A DNA stretch of 64,000 nt from Streptomyces turgidiscabies Car8. Its GTDB lineage: Bacteria > Actinomycetota > Actinomycetes > Streptomycetales > Streptomycetaceae. The notes below the pieces were generated by a model. The model ran no database searches and was not told where the DNA came from. It saw only the letters and a list, made by a program, of their open reading frames with translations. Of the stretch, positions 35,119-54,378 are shown one piece after another. The stretch spans positions 113,408 to 177,407 of the forward strand of contig NZ_AEJB01000208.1 of the NCBI RefSeq assembly GCF_000331005.1, in the 5' to 3' direction. The translations under genes were made by a program, and so were the position numbers. The stretch's first letter is position 1, and each line of letters opens with the position of its first letter.

Positions 35119-35133
35119 GTTCTCCAAGAGGTC
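35119..35133 (-). promoter_or_regulatory. Start-associated sequence, copy 1
   Basis: GACCTCTTGGAGAAC on the minus strand, directly upstream of the start at 35113. It is far longer than a normal Shine-Dalgarno site and is shared exactly with other early genes. A perfect 11-bp GC-rich hairpin occupies 35149-35174. Confidence 0.7.
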
Positions 35134-35581: not shown

Positions 35582-35610
35582 ATTCTATATGCATCGAGAG
35601 GGGAGTTCAA
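35582..35610 (-). promoter_or_regulatory. Prophage early promoter P1
   Basis: Read on the minus strand: -35 TTGAAC (35610-35605), 17-bp spacer, -10 TAGAAT (35587-35582) inside the shared motif TGCATATAGAAT. It drives the Cys-rich, DUF4314 and 34247-35113 genes. Confidence 0.7.
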
Positions 35611-38081: not shown

Positions 38082-38110
38082 TTTCTATATGCATTCTGGT
38101 TGGGGGCGGC
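38082..38110 (-). promoter_or_regulatory. Prophage promoter-like site P2 (weaker)
   Basis: Minus-strand TGCATATAGAAA; this copy keeps the extended -10 but has -10 TAGAAA and no good -35 (GGCCGC at 17 bp). It precedes the gene starting at 38039. Confidence 0.45.
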
Positions 38111-42072: not shown

Positions 42073-42525
42073 TCAGGGTGCGTCGGGGAGTTCGAGCTGC
42101 TGCGCGGCCTGCACCTCCGCGTCCAGTGGGTTCGGTCCGGGGCGGTAGTAGGGCAGGCACCGGGGGCACTGCTGCTCTACAGCCCGGCGGTGAGCACGCG
42201 ATCCGGCGGCCGTGCCGCACGATTTGCGGATGACCGGGACTGGCAGCTCGTTGGGGTCGGCGTCCGGCAGCTCGTGGATGATCACGCCGTTGAGCCAGAT
42301 CCGGCCGCCGCAGATGCCGGTGAACAGGCTTTTGGCTGGGACGACTTGCCGGATGCAGGCGGCCCGGAAGGGGCAGCCTCCGCAGACGTAGAGGACGGGT
42401 TCGCAGATGGCGACCAGTTCGATGCCGTTCTTCCATCTGTCGTCGGCAACGGCGAAGTCCTCGTCGCCGAAGCACGGGGCGTGGGAGGTGACATGGGTGC
42501 CGATCAGGGTTCGTGATCCGGTCAC
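42073..42525 (-). CDS. WhiB-like Fe-S transcription factor (phage-encoded)
   Basis: 150 residues. Cys18, Cys48, Cys51 and Cys57 show the WhiB spacing C-x29-C-x2-C-x5-C; the G(I/V)-containing turn GICGGRIW follows at 70-77. WhiB proteins bind a 4Fe-4S cluster and regulate with the principal sigma factor in actinobacteria; phage versions can override host division or antibiotic genes. Extra cysteines (SCGTAAG, QCPRC) and a C-terminal extension are unusual. GTG 42525 overlaps the methylase stop by 4 bp, so the two are co-translated. Confidence 0.8.
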   Translation of the reverse strand: MTGSRTLIGTHVTSHAPCFGDEDFAVADDRWKNGIELVAICEPVLYVCGGCPFRAACIRQVVPAKSLFTGICGGRIWLNGVIIHELPDADPNELPVPVIRKSCGTAAGSRAHRRAVEQQCPRCLPYYRPGPNPLDAEVQAAQQLELPDAP

Positions 42526-44027
42526 AGGACGGGCTCCAATCGCTGGCCTATCCACCGAGCGACATTCACCGAGACCGCGTTGCCTGCCTGCGCGGTCTGC
42601 TCTGCCTGGTTGCCGTAGACGACGTACTTCTTAGGAAACCGCTGCCCTTCGAGCTGTTCGCGGGGCTTGAGCATCCGGAAGTAGCAGTCGTTGATGTCCG
42701 GGGCGTTTTGCACCAGAGCGGCTGAGTCGCGGGTGGAGAGGGTGTGGACGGGTTCGGCGGCCGTCTTCACCGCGGCCTTGCGGTACGGCACGACGAGGGT
42801 GTTCCGCGCACGGTCGGGCACAGTGCCGGCGTGCGTGACAAGGCCGTGGTGGTTGCCCTGGGCGGTGACGACGCTGAGCGGGTCGCTCGCGGGGCTGGCG
42901 GTGGCGTGGTTGCGGTACTCGATGATGAACGGGTCCATCGTCAGCAGGGCTTCGCTCTCGCGGGTGGTGCGAGTCCGCATCGGCACGTCCAGAGGGACGG
43001 CATCGGTGTTCCACGAGCCGCCGGTCGGCACCAGAAGGGCATCGCCCTGCTTCACCGTCCGGACAGGCATCGGCCGGTCCTCGACGGCGTACGCCCTGTC
43101 CCCGCCATCCTTGCCGTGGGTGAGCGAGATCGAGTACGGGCGCCAGGGGAACTTGAGGCGGCCTGCGCGGATGCGGTCCATGGTGGTATCGGCGAGCGGC
43201 TTCTTGCGGTCGCCGATCCGCTTCCCGAGGTCGCTGAAGTCGATGATGTCGCTGGCCGGGCGTACGTACGGCTCGACCATGGCGTGGCGGCAACGGGTGT
43301 TGGGGCAGCGGTAGATGTAGTCGCGCCGGTACTTCCCGATACGCAGGCCATCGGTCTTGGTCCACGACTGGACGGCGTGCACGTCCTCACCGCAGTCGAC
43401 GCAGGGAGCGAGCGGCCTGGGCTCCAGGTCGGGCTTGCGCATGGTCTTGAGGGTGAAGACCACGTACATCCGGTCACGCCACTGCGGGGCGCGCAGGTTG
43501 ACGTCGTCGCCGACGTGGGCGCTGCTGACGCACACGATCTGGTACTGGTATCCGAGCAGCTCCATGGCTTGGAGCCAGGTCGCGAACAGGATCCAGTCCA
43601 GGCCGAATTCGACGACGTTCTCGACGACGATGGCCTTGAACCGCTTCGCTTCAGCTGCTCGTACCACGCACCAGGCGGTTACCCGGGTCGCCTCGAAGGC
43701 GTCCTTGGTCAGGGACTCCCACTCGTCGCGTTCCTCTTCGAGCAGGTCGAGGAGATCAAGTTGGTTAGTCTCCCGAGTCCTGCCACCCGCGGGGCTGATC
43801 TCGGTGCAGATGACGGATGCCCACAGTGCGTCGGCCTTGGGCAGCATGCGCATGGGGAAGCCGTCGCTGAGCGTCATGACGGCGTGTTCACAGTTGGGGT
43901 GGTTGGCGGCGTGCGTCTCGATCGCCAGCCGCCAGTGGTTGATGCCGAGCAACAGCTCGTGCCCGGCTTCGACAAGTCCAGTGCTGCTGCCGCCCGCGCC
44001 ACACAAAAGGTCAATCCAGGTGGCCAT
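42522..44027 (-). CDS. DNA (cytosine-5) methyltransferase, divergent phage type
   Basis: 501 residues. Motif I is DLLCGAGGSSTG (6-17), the catalytic-loop cysteine is probably Cys74 in VICTEISPAGG (a divergent PC motif), and ENV is at 136-138. Motif X is GNAVSVNVA near the C-terminus. A zinc-ribbon-like insertion (CVDCGED...RCPNTRCRH) sits mid-protein. Such enzymes modify phage DNA to avoid restriction. The ATG at 44027 is preceded by the start-associated sequence at 44039-44053 and a hairpin at 44059-44084. Confidence 0.85.
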   Translation of the reverse strand: MATWIDLLCGAGGSSTGLVEAGHELLLGINHWRLAIETHAANHPNCEHAVMTLSDGFPMRMLPKADALWASVICTEISPAGGRTRETNQLDLLDLLEEERDEWESLTKDAFEATRVTAWCVVRAAEAKRFKAIVVENVVEFGLDWILFATWLQAMELLGYQYQIVCVSSAHVGDDVNLRAPQWRDRMYVVFTLKTMRKPDLEPRPLAPCVDCGEDVHAVQSWTKTDGLRIGKYRRDYIYRCPNTRCRHAMVEPYVRPASDIIDFSDLGKRIGDRKKPLADTTMDRIRAGRLKFPWRPYSISLTHGKDGGDRAYAVEDRPMPVRTVKQGDALLVPTGGSWNTDAVPLDVPMRTRTTRESEALLTMDPFIIEYRNHATASPASDPLSVVTAQGNHHGLVTHAGTVPDRARNTLVVPYRKAAVKTAAEPVHTLSTRDSAALVQNAPDINDCYFRMLKPREQLEGQRFPKKYVVYGNQAEQTAQAGNAVSVNVARWIGQRLEPVL

Positions 44028-44038
44028 GTGGGTAGTTG

Positions 44039-44053
44039 TTCTCCAAGAGGTCC
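44039..44053 (-). promoter_or_regulatory. Start-associated sequence, copy 2
   Basis: GACCTCTTGGAGAAC type leader before the methylase start, with a perfect 10-bp hairpin GCCCGGCCCC/GGGGCCGGGC at 44059-44084 only 6 bp upstream. Confidence 0.7.
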
Positions 44054-44095
44054 TGCGCGCCCGGCCCCTATGGCGGGGCCGGGCAACGGCCGAGA

Positions 44096-44578
44096 TCAGT
44101 GAGTGCGGAGACCGCCGTGCGCCTGCGCGTGGCGCAGGAAGGCGATCCAGATCCCCCATGTCGGGTCACCCACGGGCATCTCTGCGATGGCCACGCCCGG
44201 GTGGGCGTCATAGGTGGCGAGGGCGGCGGTGATCTCGGCGACCGTCACGAGGAAGCCGTCGTTCGAGTCGATCTTGTACCTGGGTATGCCGGTCGGCACT
44301 GTCTCGGAGGCGTCCTTGACGGCCTTGTAGGCGGTCCGAAATTCGGCGACGCGGTTCGTCGTGCTCTCGTCGTACTTGGTGCCGGGCTGGAGGTCCACGC
44401 CCGCCAGCCCGTAGGCGGACAGCGCCGGGTATGACGGGACGGGCAGCTCGACGAGCATCCCGAAGTTCTTCATCGCGTCGAGGGTGCGCGGCAGTGCGGT
44501 GAAGGCGAACCGGAAGTAGTTCTCGTCCCCTTCGGCTCTCGTGCCGTCAGGGGTCTGGATGTAGACGTCGTTTCCCAC
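44096..44578 (-). CDS. Phage protein of unknown function
   Basis: 160 residues. GTG 44578 sits six bases after the start-associated sequence (44586-44599). The protein begins GNDVYIQTPDGTR and ends with WIAFLRHAQAHGGLRTH. Mixed alpha/beta, no recognised family. It precedes the methylase gene. Confidence 0.6.
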   Translation of the reverse strand: MGNDVYIQTPDGTRAEGDENYFRFAFTALPRTLDAMKNFGMLVELPVPSYPALSAYGLAGVDLQPGTKYDESTTNRVAEFRTAYKAVKDASETVPTGIPRYKIDSNDGFLVTVAEITAALATYDAHPGVAIAEMPVGDPTWGIWIAFLRHAQAHGGLRTH

Positions 44579-44585
44579 GGGGTTG

Positions 44586-44599
44586 TTCTCCAAGAGGTC
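44586..44599 (-). promoter_or_regulatory. Start-associated sequence, copy 3
   Basis: Exact GACCTCTTGGAGAA(C) copy. A perfect 13-bp hairpin (GCTGCCCGGCCCG/CGGGCCGGGCAGC, 44604-44633) lies 4 bp upstream. Confidence 0.7.
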
Positions 44600-44637
44600 T
44601 GCGGCTGCCCGGCCCGGAGTCGGGCCGGGCAGCGCGT

Positions 44638-44802
44638 TCAGCGGTGGGCGGCGTGGCGGCGGTGGACTTCGCCGTAGGTCGTGCGGCGCGGGTCCCGGCT
44701 GCGGGCCTCCCAGCGGAGCTCTGCGATGACGATCACGGTGAGGCCGGCACCGACACCGAGGGCGAGCACGAGCAGTGCGTACAGCGCGTGCAGTTCGGTC
44801 AC
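44638..44802 (-). CDS. Small single-pass membrane protein
   Basis: 54 residues. GTG 44802 overlaps the upstream stop by 4 bp (GTGA). One hydrophobic helix at about 5-28 (ALYALLVLALGVGAGLTVIVIA) then a basic tail. Function unknown. Confidence 0.55.
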   Translation of the reverse strand: MTELHALYALLVLALGVGAGLTVIVIAELRWEARSRDPRRTTYGEVHRRHAAHR

Positions 44803-45017
44803 CGCGCCACCACCTCGTAGCGAGCCGGGCAGGGTTGAAGGAGCTGCATGCACGCGACGAAGACCCCGTGGGCGTGGTTGGTCGCGAGTCCGTTGTCCAA
44901 CGCGGCCTGGGCTCGGGCTCGTTCGGCCTCGTCCTGCGGGTGGGCGATGACGCAGGCGCAGCGGCGCTTGCTGGTCTCCTCCGCCGGATTCGGCGGGACC
45001 GCTTCGGTGTCCGCCAT
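44799..45017 (-). CDS. Small phage protein with cysteines
   Basis: 72 residues, ATG 45017 overlapping the upstream stop by one base (TGATG). Contains CAC, FVACMQLLQPCP and an Ala/Arg-rich helix. Function unknown. Confidence 0.55.
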   Translation of the reverse strand: MADTEAVPPNPAEETSKRRCACVIAHPQDEAERARAQAALDNGLATNHAHGVFVACMQLLQPCPARYEVVAR

Positions 45018-45667
45018 CAGACGATCACCTGCCCGGTGGACGCGAGGTAGAGGATGCCGACCTCGTCGTTCAGCTCCCACACCGTGAGCGGCCAGTCCGT
45101 ACCGCCTTGCGCGTGGACGCACGTCCAGCCCTTCGCCGCCATGGCGCGCACGACGTTGGCGTACTCAATGAGGGCCGTGCCACTGTCGGTGAGAGGGCCG
45201 TGGAGGAGCTTTGACACCGGCAGGCGCTGCGCCGTCACGCCTCGGAGCCGGACTGAGATCAGGTCGCTGACGCGTGGCGCGAGGCGCCGCTCGGTGACGA
45301 AGGCCGTGATGGCCTGGATGAGCGGGACGGTGTTGTTGCCGTGTTGCGCCTGCTCTCCGCTCTCCGTGGAGTCGTAGAGCACCTCGTCGATGTTCGGGTT
45401 GTCATCGTGGCGGCGCTTGACGTGGAAGCCCTCCAGCGCGGCCGGGTCCATGGGCAGGTCCTCGACCGAGGAGATCCACAGATGCGAGCCGTCGGTGAGC
45501 TCGGCGGTGATGGCGAACGCGTTCCCGGACTCGACGTTGGTCACGAGCGGGATGCGGCGCAGCGCGGTGATGACCGGCTCGTACGCGCTCCACAGGTCCA
45601 GCCAGAGCGGGTCTTCGGTGTTGTTGTGCACGGGCATCGGGGCCAGCGGCGCCAGGTCGTTGCTCAC
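45017..45667 (-). CDS. Phage protein of unknown function
   Basis: 216 residues. GTG 45667 lies after GGAGAAGGAACT, part of start-associated copy 4. Alpha/beta sequence with FHVKRRHDDNPNIDEVLYDSTE and a C-terminal VWELNDEVGILYLAS. No family is recognised. First of three tightly coupled genes. Confidence 0.6.
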   Translation of the reverse strand: MSNDLAPLAPMPVHNNTEDPLWLDLWSAYEPVITALRRIPLVTNVESGNAFAITAELTDGSHLWISSVEDLPMDPAALEGFHVKRRHDDNPNIDEVLYDSTESGEQAQHGNNTVPLIQAITAFVTERRLAPRVSDLISVRLRGVTAQRLPVSKLLHGPLTDSGTALIEYANVVRAMAAKGWTCVHAQGGTDWPLTVWELNDEVGILYLASTGQVIV

Positions 45668-45673
45668 AGTTCC

Positions 45674-45687
45674 TTCTCCAAGAGGTC
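45674..45687 (-). promoter_or_regulatory. Start-associated sequence, copy 4
   Basis: GACCTCTTGGAGAA followed by GGAACT and GTG 45667. There is no obvious hairpin upstream of this copy. Confidence 0.65.
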
Positions 45688-45748
45688 GTGTGCCAGCCAA
45701 CAGTACAGAGTTGGGATCTATCTCAAGGCAAATTGACGCCGGCCGCAC

Positions 45749-46198
45749 TCACCACGGGCGGGTGACGAACACCAGCAGGGGCGCCGCGCGCCGCCCTTCT
45801 CGCACCTGTCGCGCTCGCGCAGTCAGGGCCTCCAGCTCGTCGACGCGATGACCGGCGACGTCGGCGATGCCCTGCGCCTGGTGGGCGAGTTCGCGGGCCT
45901 GCATGAGCGCCCTGTGGTTGTCGCGGTGGTCGAGGTGGATCTCGGCGCCGCCAATGTCGTCGAGGAGTTCACCGACGACCTCGTCCCGCACTGGCTTGGC
46001 GCACCCCAGCCCGCCGAGGTGCCGCTCGCAGTCGACCAGGTCCTTCAGGTCGGCGATCCGGATGAGCAGGTCGCCGACACCCTCGGGGTCCTGGCGGTAG
46101 AGGTCGGCGAGGCTGTGGATCTGCTCGCGGGCGGCGGCGCCGCCGTCGAGCACGATCGCACCCTTGTGGCAGTGGCGAAGTGTGGGCAGGTAGTCCAT
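45749..46198 (-). CDS. Phage coiled-coil protein
   Basis: 149 residues, largely helical with heptad character (EQIHSLADLYRQDPEGVGDLLIRIADL; MQARELAHQAQGIADVAGHRVDELEAL). AAGGA lies before ATG 46198. First gene downstream of promoter P4. Function unknown. Confidence 0.6.
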   Translation of the reverse strand: MDYLPTLRHCHKGAIVLDGGAAAREQIHSLADLYRQDPEGVGDLLIRIADLKDLVDCERHLGGLGCAKPVRDEVVGELLDDIGGAEIHLDHRDNHRALMQARELAHQAQGIADVAGHRVDELEALTARARQVREGRRAAPLLVFVTRPW

Positions 46199-46243
46199 GT
46201 CGTCCTTCCGATCAAGAGGGGGCTTCCCCCTCCTTCTGGTTCT

Positions 46244-46271
46244 ATTCTATATGCATTGTCGAGGATGTCCA
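46244..46271 (-). promoter_or_regulatory. Prophage early promoter P4
   Basis: Minus strand: -35 TGGACA (46271-46266), 16-bp spacer, -10 TAGAAT (46249-46244) in TGCATATAGAAT. The upstream A/T-rich block (ATTCGCCGGAAAT) resembles that of P3. Confidence 0.7.
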
Positions 46272-46300
46272 TATTTCCGGCGAATTTTTCTTTCAGGGGT

Positions 46301-47281
46301 CTAAGTTTTCCGCTGGCTGCGTTCCTTCTGTGCTCGTACGGCCGCACGCGCGGCCTTGCGCGCCTCATCGGCCGCTTCCGGGTGCTCCTCGACCCGCTGT
46401 CGGCGTCTGGCCGCTTCCTCGTACCAGTCGTCCCAGAAGCGCCCGTGTACCCGCTGTTCCTCCTCCTTGGCCTCCTCCTGCTCCCTCCGGCGTCCTGCGC
46501 GCGGGTTCGTGCCGCAGCCACGGCAGGAGGCAGCAGGGCGCCCTCGGTGCTTCGTGCAGCCCCTCGGCGGCTCCCCGCGCTCGGCGGCGGAGCCGTCTGG
46601 TGGAGCGGATGCGAACTCCCCTGCGGCGTCAGCCGTGGGGGTAGGGGGGGAAGGAAGGACAGAGGAAGAACCAGGAAAGGAAGGGGTTCCACCACTGGAA
46701 CCCAGTGGGTTCCCCCCGTGAAACTCATCGGGTTCCACCGGTGGAACCCTGCCGTCCTCCCCATCTGGGTTCCCTCCGTGGAACCCTGCTTCCTCGTCTG
46801 GGTTCCCCGCGTGGAACCCAGCCTCGACCTGCGACGATTCGGCCTTCTCTCGGCGAGCGGCCTCGCGGTCATCGACGTCCTGATAGGTCATCGCAGGCTT
46901 TGCGGGGACCGACCGCGTGACTCCGGGGCGGGCTTTGTTGGGGTTCTTCGGAGCAGCCTTGCGCGCCTCCAGTCGCTCCTTGAGCTCCGGCGTGGTCGGC
47001 GTGGGCGGTACCCCGAGGGGGAAGATCCGGTAGACCGCCGACCGTCCCGCCTTGCCGACCTCCACGCGCTCGACAAGCCCTTTGGCTATCAGCTCCGTGA
47101 CGATGGTGATGGCGCGTTTGTCGGTCACGCCGACCCAGGCCGCGAGGCGGGTAAGGCCGGGGCGCGCAAGTCGCGTCTCGTCGTCGGCGCTGTCCGCGAT
47201 CTTCATGAGGGCGAGTTTCTGGCTCTGGCTAAGCACGTCGGGCGGCAAGTAGGCCGCAGCGATCATCAGTTGGATGGACAC
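46301..47281 (-). CDS. Winged-helix phage replication initiator-like protein
   Basis: 326 residues. GTG 47281 follows AAGGGGAACC. Residues about 15-90 form a winged helix (LSQSQKLALMKIADSADDE... LTRLAAWVGVTDKRAITIVTELIAKGLVERVEVG), as in phage replication-initiation proteins. The middle is disordered and carries repeats of FH(A/G)GNP encoded by the DNA iterons at 46684-46819. The C-terminus has CTKHRGRPAASCRGCG (zinc-like) and a long basic helix. The layout, an initiator with internal iterons, parallels lambda O. Origin recognition is inferred. Confidence 0.6.
   Translation of the reverse strand: MSIQLMIAAAYLPPDVLSQSQKLALMKIADSADDETRLARPGLTRLAAWVGVTDKRAITIVTELIAKGLVERVEVGKAGRSAVYRIFPLGVPPTPTTPELKERLEARKAAPKNPNKARPGVTRSVPAKPAMTYQDVDDREAARREKAESSQVEAGFHAGNPDEEAGFHGGNPDGEDGRVPPVEPDEFHGGNPLGSSGGTPSFPGSSSVLPSPPTPTADAAGEFASAPPDGSAAERGEPPRGCTKHRGRPAASCRGCGTNPRAGRRREQEEAKEEEQRVHGRFWDDWYEEAARRRQRVEEHPEAADEARKAARAAVRAQKERSQRKT
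46684..46819. repeat. Five palindromic iterons inside the initiator gene (candidate phage origin)
   Basis: Five 20-bp units begin at 46684, 46707, 46730, 46767 and 46800 with form GGGTTCC-N6-GGAACCC. Four have perfect 7-bp arms; the second is degenerate on one side. Intervals of 23, 23, 37 and 33 bp separate the starts. Tandem iterons within an initiator gene are the classic arrangement of a phage replication origin. Confidence 0.65.
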
Positions 47282-47322
47282 GGTTCCCCTTGGGCGGTAC
47301 AGGCACGGCGGCAGGACGGGGT

Positions 47323-47350
47323 GCCCCGCCCGGTCGCTCCCGGGCGGGGC
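47323..47350. terminator. Intergenic GC-rich hairpin
   Basis: Perfect 11-bp stem GCCCCGCCCGG/CCGGGCGGGGC with a 6-nt loop, between the nuclease gene and the initiator gene. It may attenuate read-through into the initiator gene. Confidence 0.5.
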
Positions 47351-47370
47351 TGAGACTCATCGGAGTCGGG

Positions 47371-48498
47371 TCAGGCCGGCGCGATGTTGATGACCGCGGG
47401 CGTCTTCTTGCCGGTCTTCCGCCGGGGGATCGCCAGTCCTGCGTCCTTGAGGTTCTTGACCATGCGGTTGACGTCCGGCGTCATCGGGACCGGGATTCCG
47501 GCGACCTCATGCAGGTCGACCATCGCCTCCACGTCGTCCTTCTCCTCGTCGTTGCCTCCGCGCCAGGACAGCTTGTTGGGGCCGTAGATCCCCTCTGGGG
47601 ATTGGTCGAGCTTCTTGCGGGCGAACTTCTTGGTCCTGTCGCCCTCGCTGGCGAGTTCGTGACCCTTCACGTAGTCGATGAGCGCCTGTTCACGGTCGGC
47701 GTCGTTGCGGATGAGCGCGGCCTGCTCGGGCACGCCCGGAGCTGTCCCGGGCCAGCACAGGGAGCGGAACGGGCAGTAGTCGCAGATGGCGTCCAGACCG
47801 GGGCCGTTGAAGTCGCGGGGCATCTCTTCGGGATTGCCGGTCTCACGCACACGTTCCACCCACCACTGCGCCTCCGCCGCACGCTGCGGGTCGAAGTCGA
47901 TCTCCTGGACGTGCTCCGCGCCGGAGTCCCGGTTGATGAACCGGAACCGAATACGGCCGATGTTCAGTGGCCCCAGGCGGGACAGGTACCGCTGACCAGG
48001 AACGTCCTCGAACCCGACCTCGAACAGCGCACCTGCGTACAGCTGGACCTGCCGTAGCTCGGCGGCCGTAGCGCCGTAGCGAAGAACACGGTCCCACAGG
48101 TACGTGGATTTGGTCTTCACGTCCTCCACGGTGAGGACGTCGGCGGGTATCGCTGGCCTGTGACGAGCGGGCAGGCGAGCGGCAGTCGCCGCGTCGAGCT
48201 GTACAACGTCGACATGCCCCCGGATCAGGTTGTCCTGGACGCTGCGTTCCACCAGCCATCTGTACTCCGTGCGCGCGGACTCAAGCAGCCCGTGGTGAAT
48301 GAACGTTCCGAGGATCGCCGCACGCTTGTCGGGGTGATCGGTCGGTGTGGTGCCGTGCAGGATGTAGGCGGCGCGTCGGCCGCACACGGTGTCGGACGCG
48401 CCGAGCTGGGTCTGACGAGAGCGGGGGCGGCGGGCGTCCACGTCGTGTGCGGCATCCCAGATGGAAGGTGCGATGCCGTCAACGGTGGCTACGGACAT
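47371..48498 (-). CDS. Cas4/RecB-like Fe-S exonuclease
   Basis: 375 residues. A PD-(D/E)XK core is visible: His69, GHVDVV (Asp97), VEDVKTK (Asp126-x-Lys128) and QVQLYA (Gln150/152). An Fe-S cluster is indicated by Cys39 (VCGRRAAY) and C239-xx-C242-x5-C248 (CDYCPFRSLC). Such nucleases resect double-stranded ends for phage recombination. ATG 48498 follows the start-associated sequence at 48506-48519. The gene next to it encodes a Sak4-like ATPase, forming a recombination pair. Confidence 0.8.
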   Translation of the reverse strand: MSVATVDGIAPSIWDAAHDVDARRPRSRQTQLGASDTVCGRRAAYILHGTTPTDHPDKRAAILGTFIHHGLLESARTEYRWLVERSVQDNLIRGHVDVVQLDAATAARLPARHRPAIPADVLTVEDVKTKSTYLWDRVLRYGATAAELRQVQLYAGALFEVGFEDVPGQRYLSRLGPLNIGRIRFRFINRDSGAEHVQEIDFDPQRAAEAQWWVERVRETGNPEEMPRDFNGPGLDAICDYCPFRSLCWPGTAPGVPEQAALIRNDADREQALIDYVKGHELASEGDRTKKFARKKLDQSPEGIYGPNKLSWRGGNDEEKDDVEAMVDLHEVAGIPVPMTPDVNRMVKNLKDAGLAIPRRKTGKKTPAVINIAPA

Positions 48499-48505
48499 AG
48501 GGGAG

Positions 48506-48519
48506 TTCTCCAAGAGGTC
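48506..48519 (-). promoter_or_regulatory. Start-associated sequence, copy 5
   Basis: GACCTCTTGGAGAACTCC upstream of the exonuclease start. Eighteen bases here match the + strand antisense copy at 50885-50902. Confidence 0.7.
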
Positions 48520-48530
48520 AGCGTGGGCGG

Positions 48531-49622
48531 TCACTGCTCGGCGTCCGCGTCCTGCTCATCGGCCTTGCGCTGGGCGGCGGCACGGAGCTTGTCGGCGTCG
48601 GACAGTGGGCCCTCCCCCATCTCCCGCCGAGGGCTGTCGAGTTCGGCGGCACGCTGCTCGGCGGCGGCCCGGATGGTGAGGATCTCGTCGTGGCTCAGGC
48701 GGTTCACCGGGTCTGGGACGGCCCGCCACAGCGCCTCAAGGAGCTTCTTGTCCGTCAGGCCGGCGATACGGGCGAGCCAGGGCTGTACGAGATCGCCGAC
48801 CAGCACGGGCATGATGCGCGGCTGGGACTCGACGGAGCAGCCCAGCTTGTTGAAGACCAGGTCCTCGATGCTGAAGTCCCGCAGCGGCAGCGGTTTGTTC
48901 CGCTCGACGCGCATCCGCAGCGATCGGACCTTGATGACCTGCGGGTCGGTGTTGCGTTTCATGCGCACCCAGCACGACGAGTCGAAGCCGAGATCTTTCT
49001 GAGCCGAGACCTTCCACTCGCTTTTGTTCTGGATCGGCTGGCCGTTGTCGTCCGTGGCGCTGACCTGCTTGCCCCGGGCCAGCACGATGGCGATGCCGGG
49101 CAGTGTGCGCAGCAGGTAGATGATCCTGTTCCACCGCTCCGTGGCGTCGTTCCACAGATTCCGGCCGATGTCGAACGCGGCGTCTGGGTCCTCCTGGAGC
49201 AGGGCGCGGTTCTTGCGCGTCCGGCGACCGCGTTCGTAGGTCCAGTTGGTGAGCATCCGCCAGAGGGCGGATCCCGAGTCGATGGTCAGGACGACCGGGG
49301 GCTCTCCGGCTGCCGCCGCGCGCCTTGCCTCGGCATGCACGGCCTCAACCTGTTCGAGAATGTCTCGGTAGGTGCCGTCGTGCTCGATGATCAGATAGTT
49401 GGCGCCCTCGATGGCCGCGTACTCGTCGGCCGATCCCTCGTCGAGGTCGATCCAATACATCTGGCCGATGCGGTCGCTGCTGGAGAACTGCGCGGCTGAG
49501 TAGGTTTTGCCGGCGCCCTCCTCGCCCTCAATGAGGAGGAGGGGCCATGGGACGATCCCTGTCGGCTTGCGTGTTTTGAGTTGGACTGCGGGCGGCATTG
49601 CGGTGCCCGCTGGTGCATTCAC
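48531..49622 (-). CDS. Sak4-like RecA-fold ATPase (single-strand annealing recombinase)
   Basis: 363 residues. Walker A is GEEGAGKT (33-40) and Walker B is VVLTIDSGS (Asp115). The overall pattern (YWIDLDEGSADEYAA; IIYLLRTLPGIAIVLARGKQVS) fits phage Sak4-type AAA/RecA proteins, which anneal single strands during phage recombination. The C-terminal 60 residues are helical and charged. GTG 49622 follows GACCTCTTGGAGCCAGATC. It is adjacent to the Cas4-like exonuclease, its likely partner. Confidence 0.75.
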   Translation of the reverse strand: MNAPAGTAMPPAVQLKTRKPTGIVPWPLLLIEGEEGAGKTYSAAQFSSSDRIGQMYWIDLDEGSADEYAAIEGANYLIIEHDGTYRDILEQVEAVHAEARRAAAAGEPPVVLTIDSGSALWRMLTNWTYERGRRTRKNRALLQEDPDAAFDIGRNLWNDATERWNRIIYLLRTLPGIAIVLARGKQVSATDDNGQPIQNKSEWKVSAQKDLGFDSSCWVRMKRNTDPQVIKVRSLRMRVERNKPLPLRDFSIEDLVFNKLGCSVESQPRIMPVLVGDLVQPWLARIAGLTDKKLLEALWRAVPDPVNRLSHDEILTIRAAAEQRAAELDSPRREMGEGPLSDADKLRAAAQRKADEQDADAEQ

Positions 49623-49629
49623 GATCTGG

Positions 49630-49641
49630 CTCCAAGAGGTC
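49630..49641 (-). promoter_or_regulatory. Start-associated sequence, copy 6 (12-base core)
   Basis: GACCTCTTGGAG is retained, then CCAGATC before GTG 49622. The least conserved of the six gene-linked copies. Confidence 0.65.
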
Positions 49642-49645
49642 GTGG

Positions 49646-49990
49646 TCAGTCCGTGCGCAGGGCCCGGACTTCGAAGAGGGCTGCCCACTCCGGGTGTTCG
49701 GCCAGCAGGAGCCGTACGTACCGGGAGCGGTAGTCGTTGTTCAGCGCGAACTCGTCGCCTCGGGTCGCCGCGCCGTACTGGTAGCGCAGGAGCTCGAAGA
49801 GCATCCCGATGCCGATGCGGCCGAACCCCTTCTCCGCACAGTCGGCGGTCATCCGGATCAGCGCCCTGAGAACCCAGGGGTTGAGCGAGTGGAACGCCTC
49901 GAATCGCTGCTGGATGGTCAGGCTGCCGACATCGGCGGGGTGGCGAACGGGCTGGATGGTGCCGAACAACGGCGGCTGTTCGATCAGCAA
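49646..49990 (-). CDS. Conserved small phage protein
   Basis: 114 residues. TTG 49990 follows GAGAGGGGAGCC. Contains RFEAFHSLNPWVLRALIRM, IGIGMLFELLRYQYG and LNNDYRSRYVRLLL, a pattern I know from many phage early regions without an assigned function. Its upstream region holds a long palindrome and promoter P5. Confidence 0.65.
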   Translation of the reverse strand: MLIEQPPLFGTIQPVRHPADVGSLTIQQRFEAFHSLNPWVLRALIRMTADCAEKGFGRIGIGMLFELLRYQYGAATRGDEFALNNDYRSRYVRLLLAEHPEWAALFEVRALRTD

Positions 49991-50002
49991 GGCTCCCCTC
50001 TC

Positions 50003-50043
50003 AGAGATAGACCAAACACTTTGGAGTGTTGGAATCTATCTCT
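50003..50043. promoter_or_regulatory. Extended imperfect palindrome (operator or hairpin)
   Basis: Arms AGAGATAGA...CACT and AGTGTTGG...TCTATCTCT around a TTGG loop, 41 bp long. Close by are TTGTCGATCGACAA (50055-50068, a perfect palindrome) and GGCCACC/GGTGGCC (50077-50094). The cluster lies downstream of promoter P5 in the leader of the 49990 gene, suggesting regulator binding or attenuation. Confidence 0.5.
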
Positions 50044-50155
50044 GGACGGGAGGATTGTCGATCGACAACACCGCCGGCCACCCTCCGGTGGCCCCCTGGA
50101 TCGCTGCACAACCCCCCCTTCAACGAATGGAACGCACCCCTTTGAACACGCTTCC

Positions 50156-50184
50156 ATTCTATATGCATACAGGGGTTAGATCAA
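50156..50184 (-). promoter_or_regulatory. Prophage early promoter P5
   Basis: Minus strand: -35 TTGATC (50184-50179), 17-bp spacer, -10 TAGAAT (50161-50156) in TGCATATAGAAT. It should drive the 49990, Sak4-like and exonuclease genes. Confidence 0.7.
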
Positions 50185-50208
50185 GGCCCGAAAGCCTCTG
50201 ACCTGCGA

Positions 50209-50796
50209 CTATTCGGCGGTCTTGTTCGCCGCCTTGCCTCGCGGCACGATCCTGGATCCGGGCCCGTCATAGCTGCCGTCACGCAGAGCCGCCAAGACTT
50301 CCTCATCGGCCACCCAGTCCACTCCACGCGCACCCGCCTGTAGCGCGGGTGCGTCTGCAACGACCGGCTCCAGGAGCCAGATCGGTGATCCGGACAGGTT
50401 GTAGTCGGCGGGCCGGAACCGGCCCGTACTGATGGCCTTCCGCAGGAGCGCGCCGGACGGAAGCCGGAACAGAGTCACCAACTCGGCCTGCCCCACCAGC
50501 GGGGGGAGTTGCTCAACCTCCCTCACCCAGTAGCCCGGGTCCTGCTCCTTGGTCAGCCGCTCAAGCTCCGTCTGATTGAGGTGCTTCGGGCGCGGGGTCG
50601 TCTCTCCGAAGCCCTTCACGAACTGGAGGAGCCAGTACGGCGATCCGCTGATGATCTTGGCGTAGCGGTAGTCGAGGGTGTGGTCCCTGCTGATCCACTG
50701 GCTGACCTGGAGCCGCTTCACGTCGTACAGCGAGGCGAACTCAGCTCCGCCGGCCAGATACGGCTTCCTTCCCGCCGGCGCCTTGTCCTCTGCCAC
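50209..50796 (-). CDS. Two-HTH DNA-binding regulator (AlpA/excisionase-like)
   Basis: 195 residues with two related motifs. Residues about 18-60 read FASLYDVKRLQVSQWI...IISGSPYWLL, and about 105-145 read LVTLFRLPSGALLRKAI...LSGSPIWLL. Each looks like a winged HTH of the AlpA/MerR-excisionase type. CTGGAGG lies before ATG 50796. Its promoter region overlaps, divergently, that of the candidate small RNA. It is the only clear early transcription regulator besides WhiB and is a candidate Cro/repressor or excisionase. Confidence 0.6.
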   Translation of the reverse strand: MAEDKAPAGRKPYLAGGAEFASLYDVKRLQVSQWISRDHTLDYRYAKIISGSPYWLLQFVKGFGETTPRPKHLNQTELERLTKEQDPGYWVREVEQLPPLVGQAELVTLFRLPSGALLRKAISTGRFRPADYNLSGSPIWLLEPVVADAPALQAGARGVDWVADEEVLAALRDGSYDGPGSRIVPRGKAANKTAE

Positions 50797-50823
50797 TCCA
50801 TCGCCTCCAGCTCACGTCACGTC

Positions 50824-50835
50824 TGCATATAGATT
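50824..50835 (+). promoter_or_regulatory. Promoter-like site for the candidate small RNA
   Basis: TGCATATAGATT, one base from the shared prophage promoter core, but pointing rightward, opposite to every early gene. No good -35 is seen. On the minus strand the same bases include TACAAT, a possible -10 for the divergent regulator gene, so the two promoters may exclude each other. Confidence 0.4.
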
Positions 50836-50841
50836 GTAACC

Positions 50842-50935
50842 AACGGGGAAGCAGAGTCCGACCTCGCCGAAGAGGCGATAGGGTGGAGTTCTCCAAGAGG
50901 TCGAAGACCCCCGTCGAGAGACGGGGGTCTTCTTC
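50842..50935 (+). ncRNA. Candidate trans-acting small RNA antisense to phage ribosome-binding sites
   Basis: The predicted transcript starts about 7 nt after the promoter-like TAGATT at 50830-50835. It holds a small 5' stem-loop (CGCC...GGCG near 50866-50877), then an unpaired segment with GTTCTCCAAGAGGTC (50888-50902). A perfect 13-bp terminator stem (50903-50932) with a T-rich tail follows. The unpaired segment is the exact complement of the start-associated sequence before six early genes, covering the GGAG. The match is 15 nt for three genes, 18 nt for the exonuclease and 13-15 nt for the others. It is not followed by any open frame in sense. Existence and function are inferred; no expression evidence is available. 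Confidence 0.5.
50903..50932 (+). terminator. Intrinsic terminator
   Basis: Perfect 13-bp stem GAAGACCCCCGTC/GACGGGGGTCTTC with a GAGA loop and T-rich + strand tail (TTCTTCCATTT overlaps its end). It suits the + oriented small RNA and, as a symmetric stem, could also end the leftward late operon. Confidence 0.75.
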
Positions 50936-50987
50936 CATTTCCATGCTGGACTCTCGGCCGCTCGACGTCACCACATCTGATCGTGGG

Positions 50988-51242
50988 TCAGGTACGCGGC
51001 AAAGTGAGCGTCGTATTCTCGTACTTCGGCGGACGGGCGTAGCCGAGCAGCCAGCCGAACCGAGGCGACAGATGCTCCTCGGCGAGCCGGAAGACGCCGT
51101 AGTAGGAGAAGGTGGCGACCGGGGTCAGGACTCCCGTGACGGCCGTGGCGTCGAGATCGAGTCCGTGGCGGAAGGCCACCGCGACGAGCCAGCCGACCGC
51201 AGCCGGAACTCCCGTGCGCAGCAGCGAGGCGTAGAGGTTCAT
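50988..51242 (-). CDS. Putative holin
   Basis: 84 residues with a hydrophobic helix at about 8-25 and another at about 35-52, and a short charged tail. It lies directly downstream of the endolysin gene in the lysis module, where a holin is expected. AAGGAG lies 11 bases before the ATG. Identification rests on position, size and topology. Confidence 0.6.
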   Translation of the reverse strand: MNLYASLLRTGVPAAVGWLVAVAFRHGLDLDATAVTGVLTPVATFSYYGVFRLAEEHLSPRFGWLLGYARPPKYENTTLTLPRT

Positions 51243-51275
51243 TGGGACGTGTGCTCCTTGGGCTGGTCAGCGGGA

Positions 51276-52124
51276 TCAGGCGAAGAGTCGGCGCCAGGTC
51301 TCCGGCCCGGGGTAGCCGTCGGCGTCGGATCCGGTCCACTTCTGGGCGTGCTGGAAGTCGACGACGTTGAGGCGGTCCGCCTCACCCCAGCCGCGGGACG
51401 GGCCGACGCGGTAGTGCTTGCCGTGGCCCTTGCGCACGAGCTGCTGGCCCAGCAGGAGAATCGAAGTGTTCGACTTGCCGGGTCCGAAGGCGCTTCGGCC
51501 GGGGAACGCCGGCGGGCCCGGCTTGGGCGTCGTCGACATGGTGGTCGGCCACTTCGGCATCGGGCCCGGATCCGTGTGCGTGTTCTCGGGCGTCTGGCCG
51601 TGGCCGTAGTGCCCGCCCTCCGTCTCCCAGGTGTGCTCGCTGCGGTTCGCCTTCCAGGTCGGGGCACCCATCGGCCAGGCGTCCGGCACCCCCCAACTCC
51701 GCGCCCAGGCCAGGATCTTGTCGAGTCCCTTGGCCGGGGTGTCCCGCACGGTCGCGTACGACGTCCCGTTCACGCGGCAGTACGGGAAGAACACCGTCTC
51801 GACTTGGAGACACACCTTCCCAGTGCGGTTGGTCCGGGTGCCGCCGGCCGTGTCGACGACCGACTTGGACCGGCTGTTCGCCGGGTAGAACTGGGCGGTC
51901 CTGCCCGTGAAGGGATCCCAAAGCAGATGCGGCGCGACGCCCTTGCCGCCGCCGGTGAAGTACTGCACGAGCCTGTCGAATGCCACGAGATCGGCGGGCT
52001 TGGCCGCCGTGGCGTTCTTGTCCCACGTGATGTGCCAGATGACGCGTGGGTCGTACTGCGTGTCGGTGGGTGCGGTGTCGCTGAGCGGGTGCCGCTCAAC
52101 TCCAGGCAGCCAGAGATCAGGCAT
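51276..52124 (-). CDS. Endolysin (amidase-type) with C-terminal binding domain
   Basis: 282 residues. The N-terminal catalytic region (about 25-170) resembles phage peptidoglycan amidases: VIWHITWDKN with His31, APHLLWDPFTGRTAQFYP, and a later HYGHGQTPENTHTDPG zinc-ligand-like segment. The C-terminal about 70 residues (LLLGQQLVRKGHGKHYRVGPSRGWGEADRLNVVDFQ...GPETWRRL) match a peptidoglycan-binding module common in Streptomyces phages. ATG 52124 is immediately preceded by the hairpin-enclosed ribosome-binding site at 52125-52151. Confidence 0.78.
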   Translation of the reverse strand: MPDLWLPGVERHPLSDTAPTDTQYDPRVIWHITWDKNATAAKPADLVAFDRLVQYFTGGGKGVAPHLLWDPFTGRTAQFYPANSRSKSVVDTAGGTRTNRTGKVCLQVETVFFPYCRVNGTSYATVRDTPAKGLDKILAWARSWGVPDAWPMGAPTWKANRSEHTWETEGGHYGHGQTPENTHTDPGPMPKWPTTMSTTPKPGPPAFPGRSAFGPGKSNTSILLLGQQLVRKGHGKHYRVGPSRGWGEADRLNVVDFQHAQKWTGSDADGYPGPETWRRLFA

Positions 52125-52151
52125 GGCGCGTTCCTTGTTCTCCCCCGCGCC
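52125..52151 (-). promoter_or_regulatory. Hairpin-enclosed late ribosome-binding site, copy 1
   Basis: 27 bp, identical to 57847-57873: GGCGCG - 15 nt containing GGGGAGAACAAGGAA - CGCGCC. The arms can pair and hold the Shine-Dalgarno site in the loop, directly before the endolysin start. Confidence 0.65.
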
Positions 52152-52164
52152 TGCTGTTCCGAGC

Positions 52165-52488
52165 CTACAGTCCGAGCTTGCCGGTCACGATCGCGACGAT
52201 CACTCCCACCACGACCGGGGCCACGAGGGCGGTAAGAGCCAACCGCCGTACGCCGCGTGCCTCTTGGCGCTCCGTCTCACGCTCGCGCCGCAACTGAGCG
52301 ACGTCGTCCTCGACAGCTTTGATCCGTACCTCGTCAGTCCGCCGGTCGGCGTCGTACTGGATCTTCGTCACCATCTCGGCGAGCCGCGCGCTGAAGGCAG
52401 CGAAGTCGGCGCGCAGGTCGTCGCGCATCTGTTGCATGGCCCGCAGCAGTTCCCACGGCGTGGGGTCCTGTCCCGGCGGCGAGGTCAC
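52165..52488 (-). CDS. Coiled-coil membrane protein, second lysis protein candidate
   Basis: 107 residues. Residues 10-75 are a highly charged coiled coil (DADRRTDEVRIKAVEDDVAQLRRERETERQ) and 83-104 form one C-terminal membrane helix. This architecture resembles XhlA/hemolysin-type phage lysis accessory proteins. It lies just upstream of the endolysin gene. The role is inferred from context. Confidence 0.6.
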   Translation of the reverse strand: MTSPPGQDPTPWELLRAMQQMRDDLRADFAAFSARLAEMVTKIQYDADRRTDEVRIKAVEDDVAQLRRERETERQEARGVRRLALTALVAPVVVGVIVAIVTGKLGL

Positions 52489-52638
52489 CGCGCTCCCTTC
52501 GGCAGCCCCGCGCCGCTGAAGATCAGTCTATGAGACGCGGCATACCCCGGGATTGCAGTGAGGTCGCCGTGGATTGTGTCGGATCAGCTGGGAGACCGTC
52601 TGGAGCCGCTCTGGTCCGTGGTCGGGGACAATGCTTGG

Positions 52639-54378
52639 GTGGCAGATAGCGGATCTAAGCGTCGTCCCTCGATCGTGCATCTGAAGCCGACGGACGGGAC
52701 CGTGAAACAGCTGTACGGCACCGCGTTTCGCTGCGGCGAGCCGTCGTGCAGTCGGCCGTTGTACCGGCAGAACAACGAGACTGGCGAGCGCATCCTCAAC
52801 AGCCGTGTTGCGCACATCCATGCACGTAGTGAAGGTGGGCCGCGCTGGGCGCCGGAAATGCCTGAGGAGGAGAACCGCAGCGAGGACAACTTGCTGTTGC
52901 TGTGTGTCGAGCATGCTTCCGAAGTCGATGTCACCCCCGAGCACTTTCCAGCGGAGACGCTGCGGGAGTGGAAACAGGCTCAGCTTGACGAGTACGCAGA
53001 GATCCAACGGGCTTGGCCGCTGGACGACGCGGAAGCGGCGGAGGCATCTGCCGCGTCCTTTGACCCGCATCAGGTGGGCGTTGCTACCGCTGGTGCGACA
53101 ACAGTTGTGGCAGCGGCACGCTGTGTCGGGCTGATGGTGGCCACCGGAAGCCAGCAGCGGCGTGTCCCTCGCGAGGCGGCTCAGGCTTGGCAAGCTCTGC
53201 GCGAGCGCACGACCAGGTCAATGCCTGTCTATGACGCCGACGGCGAGCGCCTACAGGTAGAGCCCTCCATGATGGAGACCAAGCCATACCGAGAGGCGCT
53301 AGAGGCAGCCCTGAGCGAGAACGTGGCGGCCTTGGAACCCCTGGCCGCCAATTTGGTGGCGGAGCTTCATGCAGTCGCTGCTGCCGCTAAGCAGCTAGCA
53401 CCCTGGTGCAATTGGGTTGAGGCCCAAGCTGGGAAGCTAATCGCCGCTGCTGGACGTTGGCCAGGACACCCACCGATCCAGGATGACGAAGTTTGGCCCG
53501 AAGCGGTCGCCGAATTGCAACGGGCTTCGCAAGCATTGAGTGCCGCATGGCGCGGCGATGAAGCGCCCATGCCTCCCGAACGAGAGGTCATGACAGAGCC
53601 GGAGGAGACAGAACAACAGCGTGCTGCCCGGGAACACCGCGAACTCCTCGATCTGACGGGGCCATGGGTAAGGGTGACTCACCGCCCCTATAATTCCGAG
53701 CTGTACACCCGGCTGGTGGATGGAATGCATTTGGTATCGGGCTTGCCTGAAATCCAATCACTTTTGGGGGTTGGGCTCGAATCGACCGCGCGGCACGCTT
53801 CGCGAGTAGCCCGCAACGTCGATGATGAAACCTATCGCTTTCTGATTCAGCAGGCCGCTGAACTTCGGCCTCTCTGCTGCGCCGTTGCTCTTCTCCGGCA
53901 TCTCATGCTCACGGCCAAGAGTTCCGAAAGGGACAGCTTGCAGGAAGAAGCACGCATGGAGGCAATGCGATTGCTGCTAGCCGAGACTTGGAAAGTTCCT
54001 GATGTTTGGGTGGACAACAAGGCTCACACGCGGCGACTCCTTTCTATGACAGCCGAATTCAGTAGCATTGCAGCAGTGCGAAATACGTTGGTAACCGCGA
54101 TTGACCATGATGCGGGACTACTACCGGTTATGCTCGACGGCATAGCACAATGGAGCGAGCAACGGGATCGGGAAACATGGCAATACTCTGGTGCCTCCTG
54201 CCAAATTAACGAACTACCCGAGTGGTTCCCCACCGAGCAGGTCGCAGCAGTGATTCGCCGACAGCTACCTCACCTGGAACCGGCTGACGAATTCGCGAGT
54301 GAAAGACATAGCGATGATCTAAACCGCCTCGCCTCTCAGGTGCTATGGATCGCAGCAGGCAACGACAACGAGTGGTAG
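52639..54378 (+). CDS. HNH endonuclease fused to a large unknown domain (prophage cargo, possible defence gene)
   Basis: About 579 residues from GTG 52639; earlier in-frame GTGs exist (52558, 52576) but lack ribosome-binding sites. A GACAAT six bases before GTG 52639 would permit leaderless translation. Residues about 20-110 form an HNH nuclease: CGEPSC (Cys32, Cys37), VAHIHARSEGGPR (His59), EDNLLLLCVEH (Asn84, Cys89, His92) and LREWKQAQ. This variant is known from defence proteins such as the HNH-SAVED CBASS effector Cap5, but SAVED is not recognisable. The C-terminal 450 residues are helical and unknown. It is on the opposite strand to all late genes, between tail fibre and lysis genes, with visibly lower GC. 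Confidence 0.7.
   Translation: MADSGSKRRPSIVHLKPTDGTVKQLYGTAFRCGEPSCSRPLYRQNNETGERILNSRVAHIHARSEGGPRWAPEMPEEENRSEDNLLLLCVEHASEVDVTPEHFPAETLREWKQAQLDEYAEIQRAWPLDDAEAAEASAASFDPHQVGVATAGATTVVAAARCVGLMVATGSQQRRVPREAAQAWQALRERTTRSMPVYDADGERLQVEPSMMETKPYREALEAALSENVAALEPLAANLVAELHAVAAAAKQLAPWCNWVEAQAGKLIAAAGRWPGHPPIQDDEVWPEAVAELQRASQALSAAWRGDEAPMPPEREVMTEPEETEQQRAAREHRELLDLTGPWVRVTHRPYNSELYTRLVDGMHLVSGLPEIQSLLGVGLESTARHASRVARNVDDETYRFLIQQAAELRPLCCAVALLRHLMLTAKSSERDSLQEEARMEAMRLLLAETWKVPDVWVDNKAHTRRLLSMTAEFSSIAAVRNTLVTAIDHDAGLLPVMLDGIAQWSEQRDRETWQYSGASCQINELPEWFPTEQVAAVIRRQLPHLEPADEFASERHSDDLNRLASQVLWIAAGNDNEW

Follow-up and report, generated by a model that had tools for sequence, protein, structure and literature searches.

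A 15-nt sequence that stands just before six early genes of a Streptomyces prophage occurs once more beside a regulator gene, with no start codon to serve, and the question raised by this locus is what that solitary copy does. We consider it in the context of the window, meaning the whole 64,000-nt stretch of Streptomyces turgidiscabies Car8 DNA that was analysed. Part of the window is a prophage, with tape measure, minor tail proteins and endolysin on its right side, and with a replication initiator, a Sak4-like ATPase, a Cas4-like exonuclease, a RusA-like resolvase and a methylase to the left of the regulator. The solitary copy is followed directly by an inverted repeat, toward whose hairpin the endolysin and tail genes run on the minus strand (Table 1). 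A first-pass annotation of this DNA had taken the arrangement for a prophage small RNA of about 94 nt, transcribed from the motif TGCATATAGATT, that would cover the ribosome-binding sites of the six genes; the motif, the seven copies and the hairpin are all present where it had placed them. Comparison with related prophages strongly supports a plus-strand RNA gene with an antisense seed and a terminator, and as we will argue below, the locus is quite probably a stand-alone prophage gene for an RNA of only about 49 nt, with the antisense seed at its 5' terminus, that would block translation of the six early genes.

Table 1. Coordinates of the predicted small-RNA gene, the neighboring regulator and the leaders within the window.
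Feature	Position	Strand	Basis or remark
Divergent regulator gene, 195 aa, helix-turn-helix-like	50209..50796	-	AlphaFold2 model
Motif TGCATATAGATT	50824..50835	+	
TACAAT, probable -10 of divergent regulator	50833..50838	-	Overlaps TGCATATAGATT; TANNNT kept in 75/85
-10 hexamer TAGGGT (TANNNT) of predicted small-RNA gene	50879..50884	+	TANNNT kept in relatives
Antisense 15-mer GTTCTCCAAGAGGTC	50888..50902	+	Conserved seed TCCAAGAGG inside, 50892-50900
Predicted small RNA of about 49 nt, both ends approximate to within a few nt	50891..50939	+	-10 spacing and stem end
Terminator-like hairpin: perfect 13-bp stem (50903-50915 / 50920-50932), 4-nt loop, then TTCCATTTCC	50903..50932	+	Inverted repeat; compensatory changes
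Leader GACCTCTTGGAG before Sak4-like ATPase (48531-49622)	49630..49641	-	phrog_124 E 2e-7, AAA_24
Leader before Cas4-like exonuclease (47371-48498)	48508..48519	-	PDDEXK_1 E 3e-6
Leader before 216-aa gene (45017-45667)	45676..45687	-	No Pfam/PHROG family for gene
Leader before 160-aa gene (44096-44578)	44588..44599	-	phrog_22709
Leader before C5-cytosine methylase (42522-44027)	44041..44052	-	DNA_methylase E 1e-21
Leader before 288-aa gene (34247-35113)	35122..35133	-	

Allowing up to 3 mismatches, the 15-mer GACCTCTTGGAGAAC has seven copies in the window, all on the minus strand (five exact, one with 1 mismatch and one with 3). Shuffled controls contain a mean of 1.5 copies, and none of 100 shuffles reached seven, which excludes chance as the source of the repeats. 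The seven copies all fall within the 35-51 kb part of the window; its tail and lysis genes carry none, and the matching leaders are confined to the early region. The exact 12-mer GACCTCTTGGAG is common to the six copies that precede genes, which bears out the earlier description of the solitary 15-mer as the reverse complement of a leader before six early genes and as the only copy lacking a gene. From core to start codon the distance is 17-19 nt in five of the six leaders, with a looser fit of 23 nt for the methylase, and the putative targets lie 1.3-15.8 kb from the element. Across the whole 10.8-Mb assembly, nine sites match the 15-mer with at most 1 mismatch, six of them inside this prophage, and the exact core CCTCTTGGAG occurs at 24 sites, 17 of them outside this prophage contig. 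Since 8 of those 17 outside sites also pass our start-codon test, the test is lenient, and we place weight on counts, one-way orientation and the promoter contrast described below. Near 1188 of another contig of the host assembly (C415, locus L317), a 392-aa leader-bearing gene has a promoter-like stretch TAGAATAGAAC upstream; this site is probably part of a second related prophage in the same host.

To see how far this arrangement extends, we turned to relatives of the prophage. Among 392 genomes drawn from the genus, 43 contain a match to the regulator, the window's own included, and further loci came from a scan of species genomes (57 loci) and a scan of viral contigs (38 loci); once near-duplicates were dropped, 110 of 136 loci were left. 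A copy of the seed upstream of the regulator is accompanied by at least two leaders in 74 of these loci, by one leader in 6 and by none in 4. The remainder comprises 19 loci with neither, 5 with one leader and no copy there, and 2 with at least two leaders and no copy there. Thus 10 of the 84 loci with a copy show at most one exact leader, some of them being cut by contig ends. Members of this prophage family are found in Streptomyces, Kitasatospora and Streptantibioticus.

Exact matches to the core CCTCTTGGA downstream of the regulator number 344 on the same strand and 3 on the opposite strand, and 309 of the 344 same-strand cores have a start codon at 12-21 nt with an open reading frame of at least 40 aa. 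The 84 copy-bearing loci hold 292 such leaders; for 200 permuted 9-mers, the count averaged 0.6 and never exceeded 25. Spacing from leader to start is 14-21 nt in 308 of the 309, all of which had passed the 12-21 nt filter, and relatives with at least two exact leaders have 2 to 9 of them (six in the window). Leader-bearing genes fall into 25 clusters, 10 of which are single genes, and the leader stands before the Cas4-like gene at 64 loci, before the 216-aa gene at 59 and before the Sak4-like ATPase at 46; given such clustering, the core behaves as an address attached to particular early genes. Within the core GGAG is Shine-Dalgarno-like and CCTCTT is not, and conservation of the entire stretch would make sense if its partner recognizes both parts.

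As judged from the relatives, a -10 on the RNA strand is the one feature that separates the RNA gene from a leader. We collected 87 element copies (84 distinct sequences) in which the seed TCCAAGAGG stands beside a terminator-like stem; the seed departs from TCCAAGAGG in three of them (L138, L151 and L242). On the RNA strand, 85 of the 87 have a TANNNT at a distance of 4-18 nt before the seed, the exceptions being L147 and L180, and these 85 copies use 19 different hexamers. The same test succeeds for 3 of 309 leaders and for 1.35% of random positions. Similarly, an extended TGN accompanies 59 element copies, none of the 309 leaders and 0.09% of random positions; the window's own -10 is without the extended TG, and no clear -35 was seen for it. 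Since the leaders are a natural control and the copies were chosen without reference to the hexamer, the -10 contrast is the strongest single result of the analysis. The resulting layout on the RNA strand is TANNNT, 6-16 nt, TCCAAGAGG and a GC-rich stem within a few nucleotides. If the RNA is taken to begin 7 nt downstream of the -10 and to stop 7 nt past the stem, its predicted length is 49 nt in the window; over the 83 copies whose stem has 6 bp or more, the median is 52 and the range 43-71.

These results shift the promoter away from the place where the first-pass annotation had put it. That annotation had proposed looking among related prophages for conservation of promoter, antisense core and terminator along with the leaders; promoter hexamer, seed and terminator are indeed conserved with the leaders, and the hexamer in question differs from the one at 50824. 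As the better-conserved promoter is TAGGGT at 50879-50884, the RNA would be about 49 nt long, with the seed at its 5' end. The promoter at 50824 was rejected as the main promoter of the RNA, since it is the regulator-strand hexamer that is conserved there (a TANNNT in 75 of 85 relatives, vs 32 of 85 on the plus strand). The overlap that had been noticed between TGCATATAGATT and the promoter of the divergent regulator, in the form of the regulator-strand TACAAT, is real, and the TGCATATAGATT region is, on this comparison, most simply the regulator's promoter. A case can be made for an RNA of about 94 nt starting from TGCATATAGATT, in that TAGATT at 50830-50835 is a fair -10, is kept by close relatives, and could drive a longer RNA coexisting with the short one; in the long form, however, part of the seed folds into a helix, and with the strand contrast just given we consider the longer form highly improbable, though close relatives may make it as a second RNA. 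As for the view of TGCATATAGATT as one copy of a prophage promoter motif, four identical minus-strand copies, TGCATATAGAAT, do exist, yet at up to 3 mismatches the motif is not enriched over shuffles (6 found, shuffle mean 4.8). The TGCATATAGAAT copies, at 35582, 40041, 46244 and 50156, lie upstream of minus-strand early genes and are probably their promoters, a site at 38082 having a further mismatch; the two copies inside the scanned part 44000-53000 (46244 and 50156) have a -35-like hexamer.

One could also imagine that the copy at 50888 is a vestigial or inverted leader, that the hairpin does no more than terminate the late (lysis) operon, and that no plus-strand RNA is made. Indeed, the late genes run toward the hairpin, and a hairpin of at least 8 bp is found within 20 nt upstream of 144 of the 309 leaders (1.9% at random positions), so that a hairpin together with CCTCTTGGA is not special to this place. 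But such a relic would not account for the RNA-strand -10 that sets the copies apart from the leaders, for a core kept without a start codon to serve, or for two prophages that hold the element away from the regulator (see below), and we regard the relic as very unlikely. A leader and hairpin unit read off the other strand may be how the RNA gene arose.

The predicted transcript folds into a free 5' end and the 13-bp terminator stem (-31.3 kcal/mol for 50891-50938). In the consensus of 51 aligned sequences, 6 of 7 stem pairs show two-sided compensatory changes, and TCCAAGAG is identical across these relatives at a mean column identity of 52%; as the copies were picked by their core, this constancy of the seed is partly built in, and L138 and L151, which have other seeds, were left out of the alignment. 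The plus-strand tail is only moderately U-rich, with 2-5 T in 10 for 76 of 83 copies. Judged by sequence, the element carries the marks of a small-RNA gene, namely its own promoter (-10), an intrinsic terminator and a location apart from its predicted targets, to whose ribosome-binding sites it is complementary.

Variation on the two sides of the proposed duplex provides a further view of the pairing. With five of the six leaders, the window's seed forms a 12-nt duplex of -21.9 to -22.6 kcal/mol (the methylase leader, with its 23-nt spacing, was left out). Next to the core, 292 of 296 leaders have a G, and the element copies (n = 87) have G 49 times, A 34 times and T 4 times; with G or A in the copy against the leader's G, G-C or G·U pairing is kept in 83, and the copy can dispense with a ribosome site. 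At position -2 the leaders match the RNA of their own prophage at a rate of 0.55, vs 0.46 under permutation, and at position -1 at 0.67 vs 0.52; none of 500 permutations reached either value, a result that relatedness can inflate. Matches to the own RNA at positions -4, -3, +9 and +10 are no better than permuted, and those at +11 to +13 are worse. With no gain beyond the flanks of the core, the pairing would be short: what is conserved is CCTCTTGGA(G) and the two bases before it, and the conserved duplex would thus be about 9-12 bp, ending about where the start of the RNA is predicted. The antisense core of 13-18 bp that was originally suggested accordingly needs trimming, in that the complementarity between seed and leader is conserved and the AAC extension of the 15-mer is not. 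It speaks against such an RNA that Streptomyces is not known to have Hfq, though a duplex of 12 GC-rich pairs may need none.

The two loci with leaders and no copy in its usual place are informative in this regard. The first-pass annotation had named, as evidence against the RNA, related phages that keep the leaders and lack the promoter and terminator, and two candidates, L139/L183 and L240, at first looked like such counterexamples, with at least two leaders and no element. Both cases were resolved as relocations. On the contig that carries L139, L183 has a complete element 5.0 kb upstream of the regulator (-10 TGTTACCGT, seed and stem), and L240 has one 4.6 kb upstream (-10 TGCTAGTCT, seed and stem). 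An element that stays intact at 4.6-5.0 kb from the regulator behaves as a gene of its own and is not simply a piece of the regulator's leader. The separation of about 5 kb between RNA gene and regulator in L183 and L240 also suggests that the region is open to insertion or rearrangement.

A different possibility is that CCTCTTGGA is a protein site, recognized either by a stoperator-like DNA repressor or by a translational regulator, with the regulator-side copy being autoregulatory. Stoperators are DNA sites for transcription control that are bound by the phage repressor and are not tied to start codons. They are named in PMC3203893, for L5 and other cluster A phages. Like the core, they form many one-way copies of a short asymmetric site, and they are a precedent for repeated one-way sites in transcription control. 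The Streptomyces copies also lie almost all in one orientation relative to transcription (344 vs 3), and the regulator gene adjoins in most loci. Spacing of 14-21 nt before the start, seen in all but one of the leaders (308/309), nevertheless fits translation better than DNA binding, and a protein site would leave unexplained a copy with its own -10 and compensated stem, a base after the core that is G in leaders but either G or A in the copy, within the limits of wobble pairing, and an element that can be distant from the regulator. We consider a protein site quite improbable.

To place these counts on a phylogeny, we used a tree of 100 regulators, for which the program warns of joined long branches (L142 with 16 others). 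All 77 rows labelled with the element fall into one fully supported group of 84, and the 16 rows outside this group lack it; within the group of 84, the element is also present in L139 (relocated) and in L189 (with a changed seed). With two rows labelled by hand, 66 rows have the RNA and at least two leaders, 13 have the RNA and fewer than two, and of the 21 rows that lack the RNA, not one carries two or more exact leaders inside 10.3 kb. Relatedness inflates the conservation counts, and the tree provides only 5 independent pairs of presence and absence; these pairs change in the same direction 3.3 times on average and in the opposite direction 0 times, which is not significant. Element and leaders are conserved together in prophages whose regulators have diverged to about 35% identity.

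Loci at the margins of the family show intermediate states. L242 has a variant seed, TCCAAGAGA, and was first counted as lacking the element, as was L189 (Streptantibioticus parmotrematis), whose seed reads TCCAAGACC and scores 38 bits. The leader-like sites of L189 are CGTCTTGGA, CTTCTTGGA and CCCCTTGGA, of which CGTCTTGGA represents a partial joint change with the seed, and L189 is perhaps an address shift under way. L213 holds a decayed copy of the element (23.6 bits), and L145, L208, L212, L224 and L225 have no element in the 20 kb examined and 0 or 1 exact leaders. Loci with more distant regulators (L155-L161, L163-L167 and L220-L223) form a separate group without leaders or RNA, and this group is also present in Nonomuraea, Sphaerisporangium and Allonocardiopsis.

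We also searched all 392 genomes with a model of the element. The 24 full-length matches listed at 32.9 bits or more are all in regulator-bearing genomes, which, as the model was built from regulator loci, shows mainly that no match that strong is listed elsewhere. Some match was found in 268 of the 392 genomes, and most of the weaker matches listed cover the hairpin only (model positions of about 35-77). Among six weaker full-length matches outside known loci (the second sites in G259 and G299 being left out), four (G059, G178, G169 and G015) have no CTCTTGGA. The search scored 12 candidates per genome under strict filters, and absences therefore mean little. A near-DNA search of 44000-52300 against phages gave one endolysin match, to Chymera (two records).

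The regulator itself has an AlphaFold2 model with a pLDDT of 89, and its structure matches are weak, the best being Streptomyces BldC at E 0.26. It matched no Pfam or PHROG family at E 0.01 and none of 50,697 phage records at E 1e-5; the nearest regulator among named genomes is that of Streptomyces geranii, at 96-97%. Its -10 and that of the RNA stand back to back, 40 bp apart, so that the regulator could control the RNA or itself.

Taken together, we envision the following mechanism. The TAGGGT-type hexamer presumably fits the -10 of the host's main sigma factor, which would transcribe the short RNA from a start at about 50891. The 5' end of the RNA would then pair with CCUCUUGGAG in each early mRNA and hide its GGAG from the ribosome, the 12-nt pairing of CUCCAAGAGGUC with GACCUCUUGGAG, at about -22 kcal/mol, covering the GGAG. 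As an outcome, the Sak4-like, Cas4-like, methylase and associated genes would be poorly translated, both in the lysogen and against an incoming related phage, and the divergent regulator promoter could set which of the RNA and the regulator is made. The broader claim, that one RNA of about 49 nt silences the whole early replication-recombination module and refuses related incoming phages via a 9-10 nt address, is more tentative, and we would put it somewhat short of an even chance. A real RNA that pairs with the leaders might instead act in the lytic cycle, through timed early shut-off or copy-number tuning. Its targets are recombination and replication-linked genes, as such a role would have it, and the timing of RNA production is not fixed by sequence; the element lies beside the regulator, however, apart from the early operons, and we infer that a constitutive RNA would act from the start. 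On balance, a lytic role is possible but rather unlikely.

Among known systems, the c4 RNA of P1 seems to work most like the predicted RNA. The portions of PMC5320573 and PMC8546580 consulted here describe c4 of P1 and P7 as an antisense RNA of about 77 nt, processed by RNase P, with three stem-loops whose loops a' and b' bind the target; it represses synthesis of the Ant protein, partly covers the ribosome-binding site, and serves lysogeny and immunity. As portrayed there, c4 shares with the predicted RNA that it is phage-encoded and trans-acting over a ribosome-binding site, and has the lysogeny and immunity role that we propose for the predicted RNA. In contrast to c4, the predicted RNA would have a free 5' seed, its own promoter and terminator, and a target common to six separate genes. 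By model the element is not a C4 antisense RNA, since in three relatives no match to an Rfam family attained the gathering score; over 50700-51100 of the window, Rfam gave one unrelated sub-threshold match on the minus strand (23.4 vs 48 bits).

The leaders, in turn, recall the Start Associated Sequences (SAS) of cluster K mycobacteriophages and cluster EF Microbacterium phages. In the excerpts of PMC3203893, PMC12699233 and PMC7302621 used here, SAS are a conserved, mostly one-way 13-bp motif that marks the ribosome-binding site of some of the non-structural genes; they are conserved beyond the needs of a ribosome site, and the choice between an RNA and a protein partner was left open in 2011 (PMC3203893). 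The Streptomyces leaders are likewise a conserved one-way motif at the ribosome-binding sites of non-structural genes, but they read GACCTCTTGGAG, with the core CCTCTTGGAG, and do not match the SAS consensus GGGATAGGAGCCC or GGGAAAGGACCCC given in those excerpts, which also report no antisense RNA for SAS systems. A reverse SAS in cluster K, considered as a parallel RNA, was not supported in Anaya (L168; half of the genome, one phage), where a single reverse SAS at about 59870 lies about 30 nt from a strong hairpin in a different layout.

Other phage small RNAs are treated in PMC12197685, whose sections on replication and lysogeny and on superinfection exclusion present RNAs acting mostly on one phage gene or on host genes. 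The OOP RNA of lambda, the sar and sas RNAs of P22 and STnc6030 of BTP1 are also short phage antisense RNAs, several of them acting on translation, but each acts on one phage gene, unlike the several-gene RNA predicted here (PMC12197685, same sections). The nearest several-target case there is VpdS of phage VP882, a phage small RNA that affects several phage and host transcripts; according to these sections, however, VpdS depends on Hfq, represses host small RNAs and competes for Hfq, and it is not described there as having a single seed for identical leaders on early genes of its own phage (PMC12197685). In the open-licence literature (titles and abstract openings), the matches listed included no Streptomyces phage RNA of this kind and no single seed serving a whole early regulon.

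Phage antisense RNAs, in the sources as far as we drew on them, mostly have a single phage gene as their target; the short seed of this element appears to be directed at several early genes at once. The element thereby gives a concrete, testable reason for start-codon motifs of the sort whose partner was left open in 2011 (PMC3203893, in part). Its parts are small enough for a translational switch in Streptomyces. If immunity by one RNA is true of this prophage family, the SAS of other actinobacteriophages may be addresses for RNAs yet to be found.
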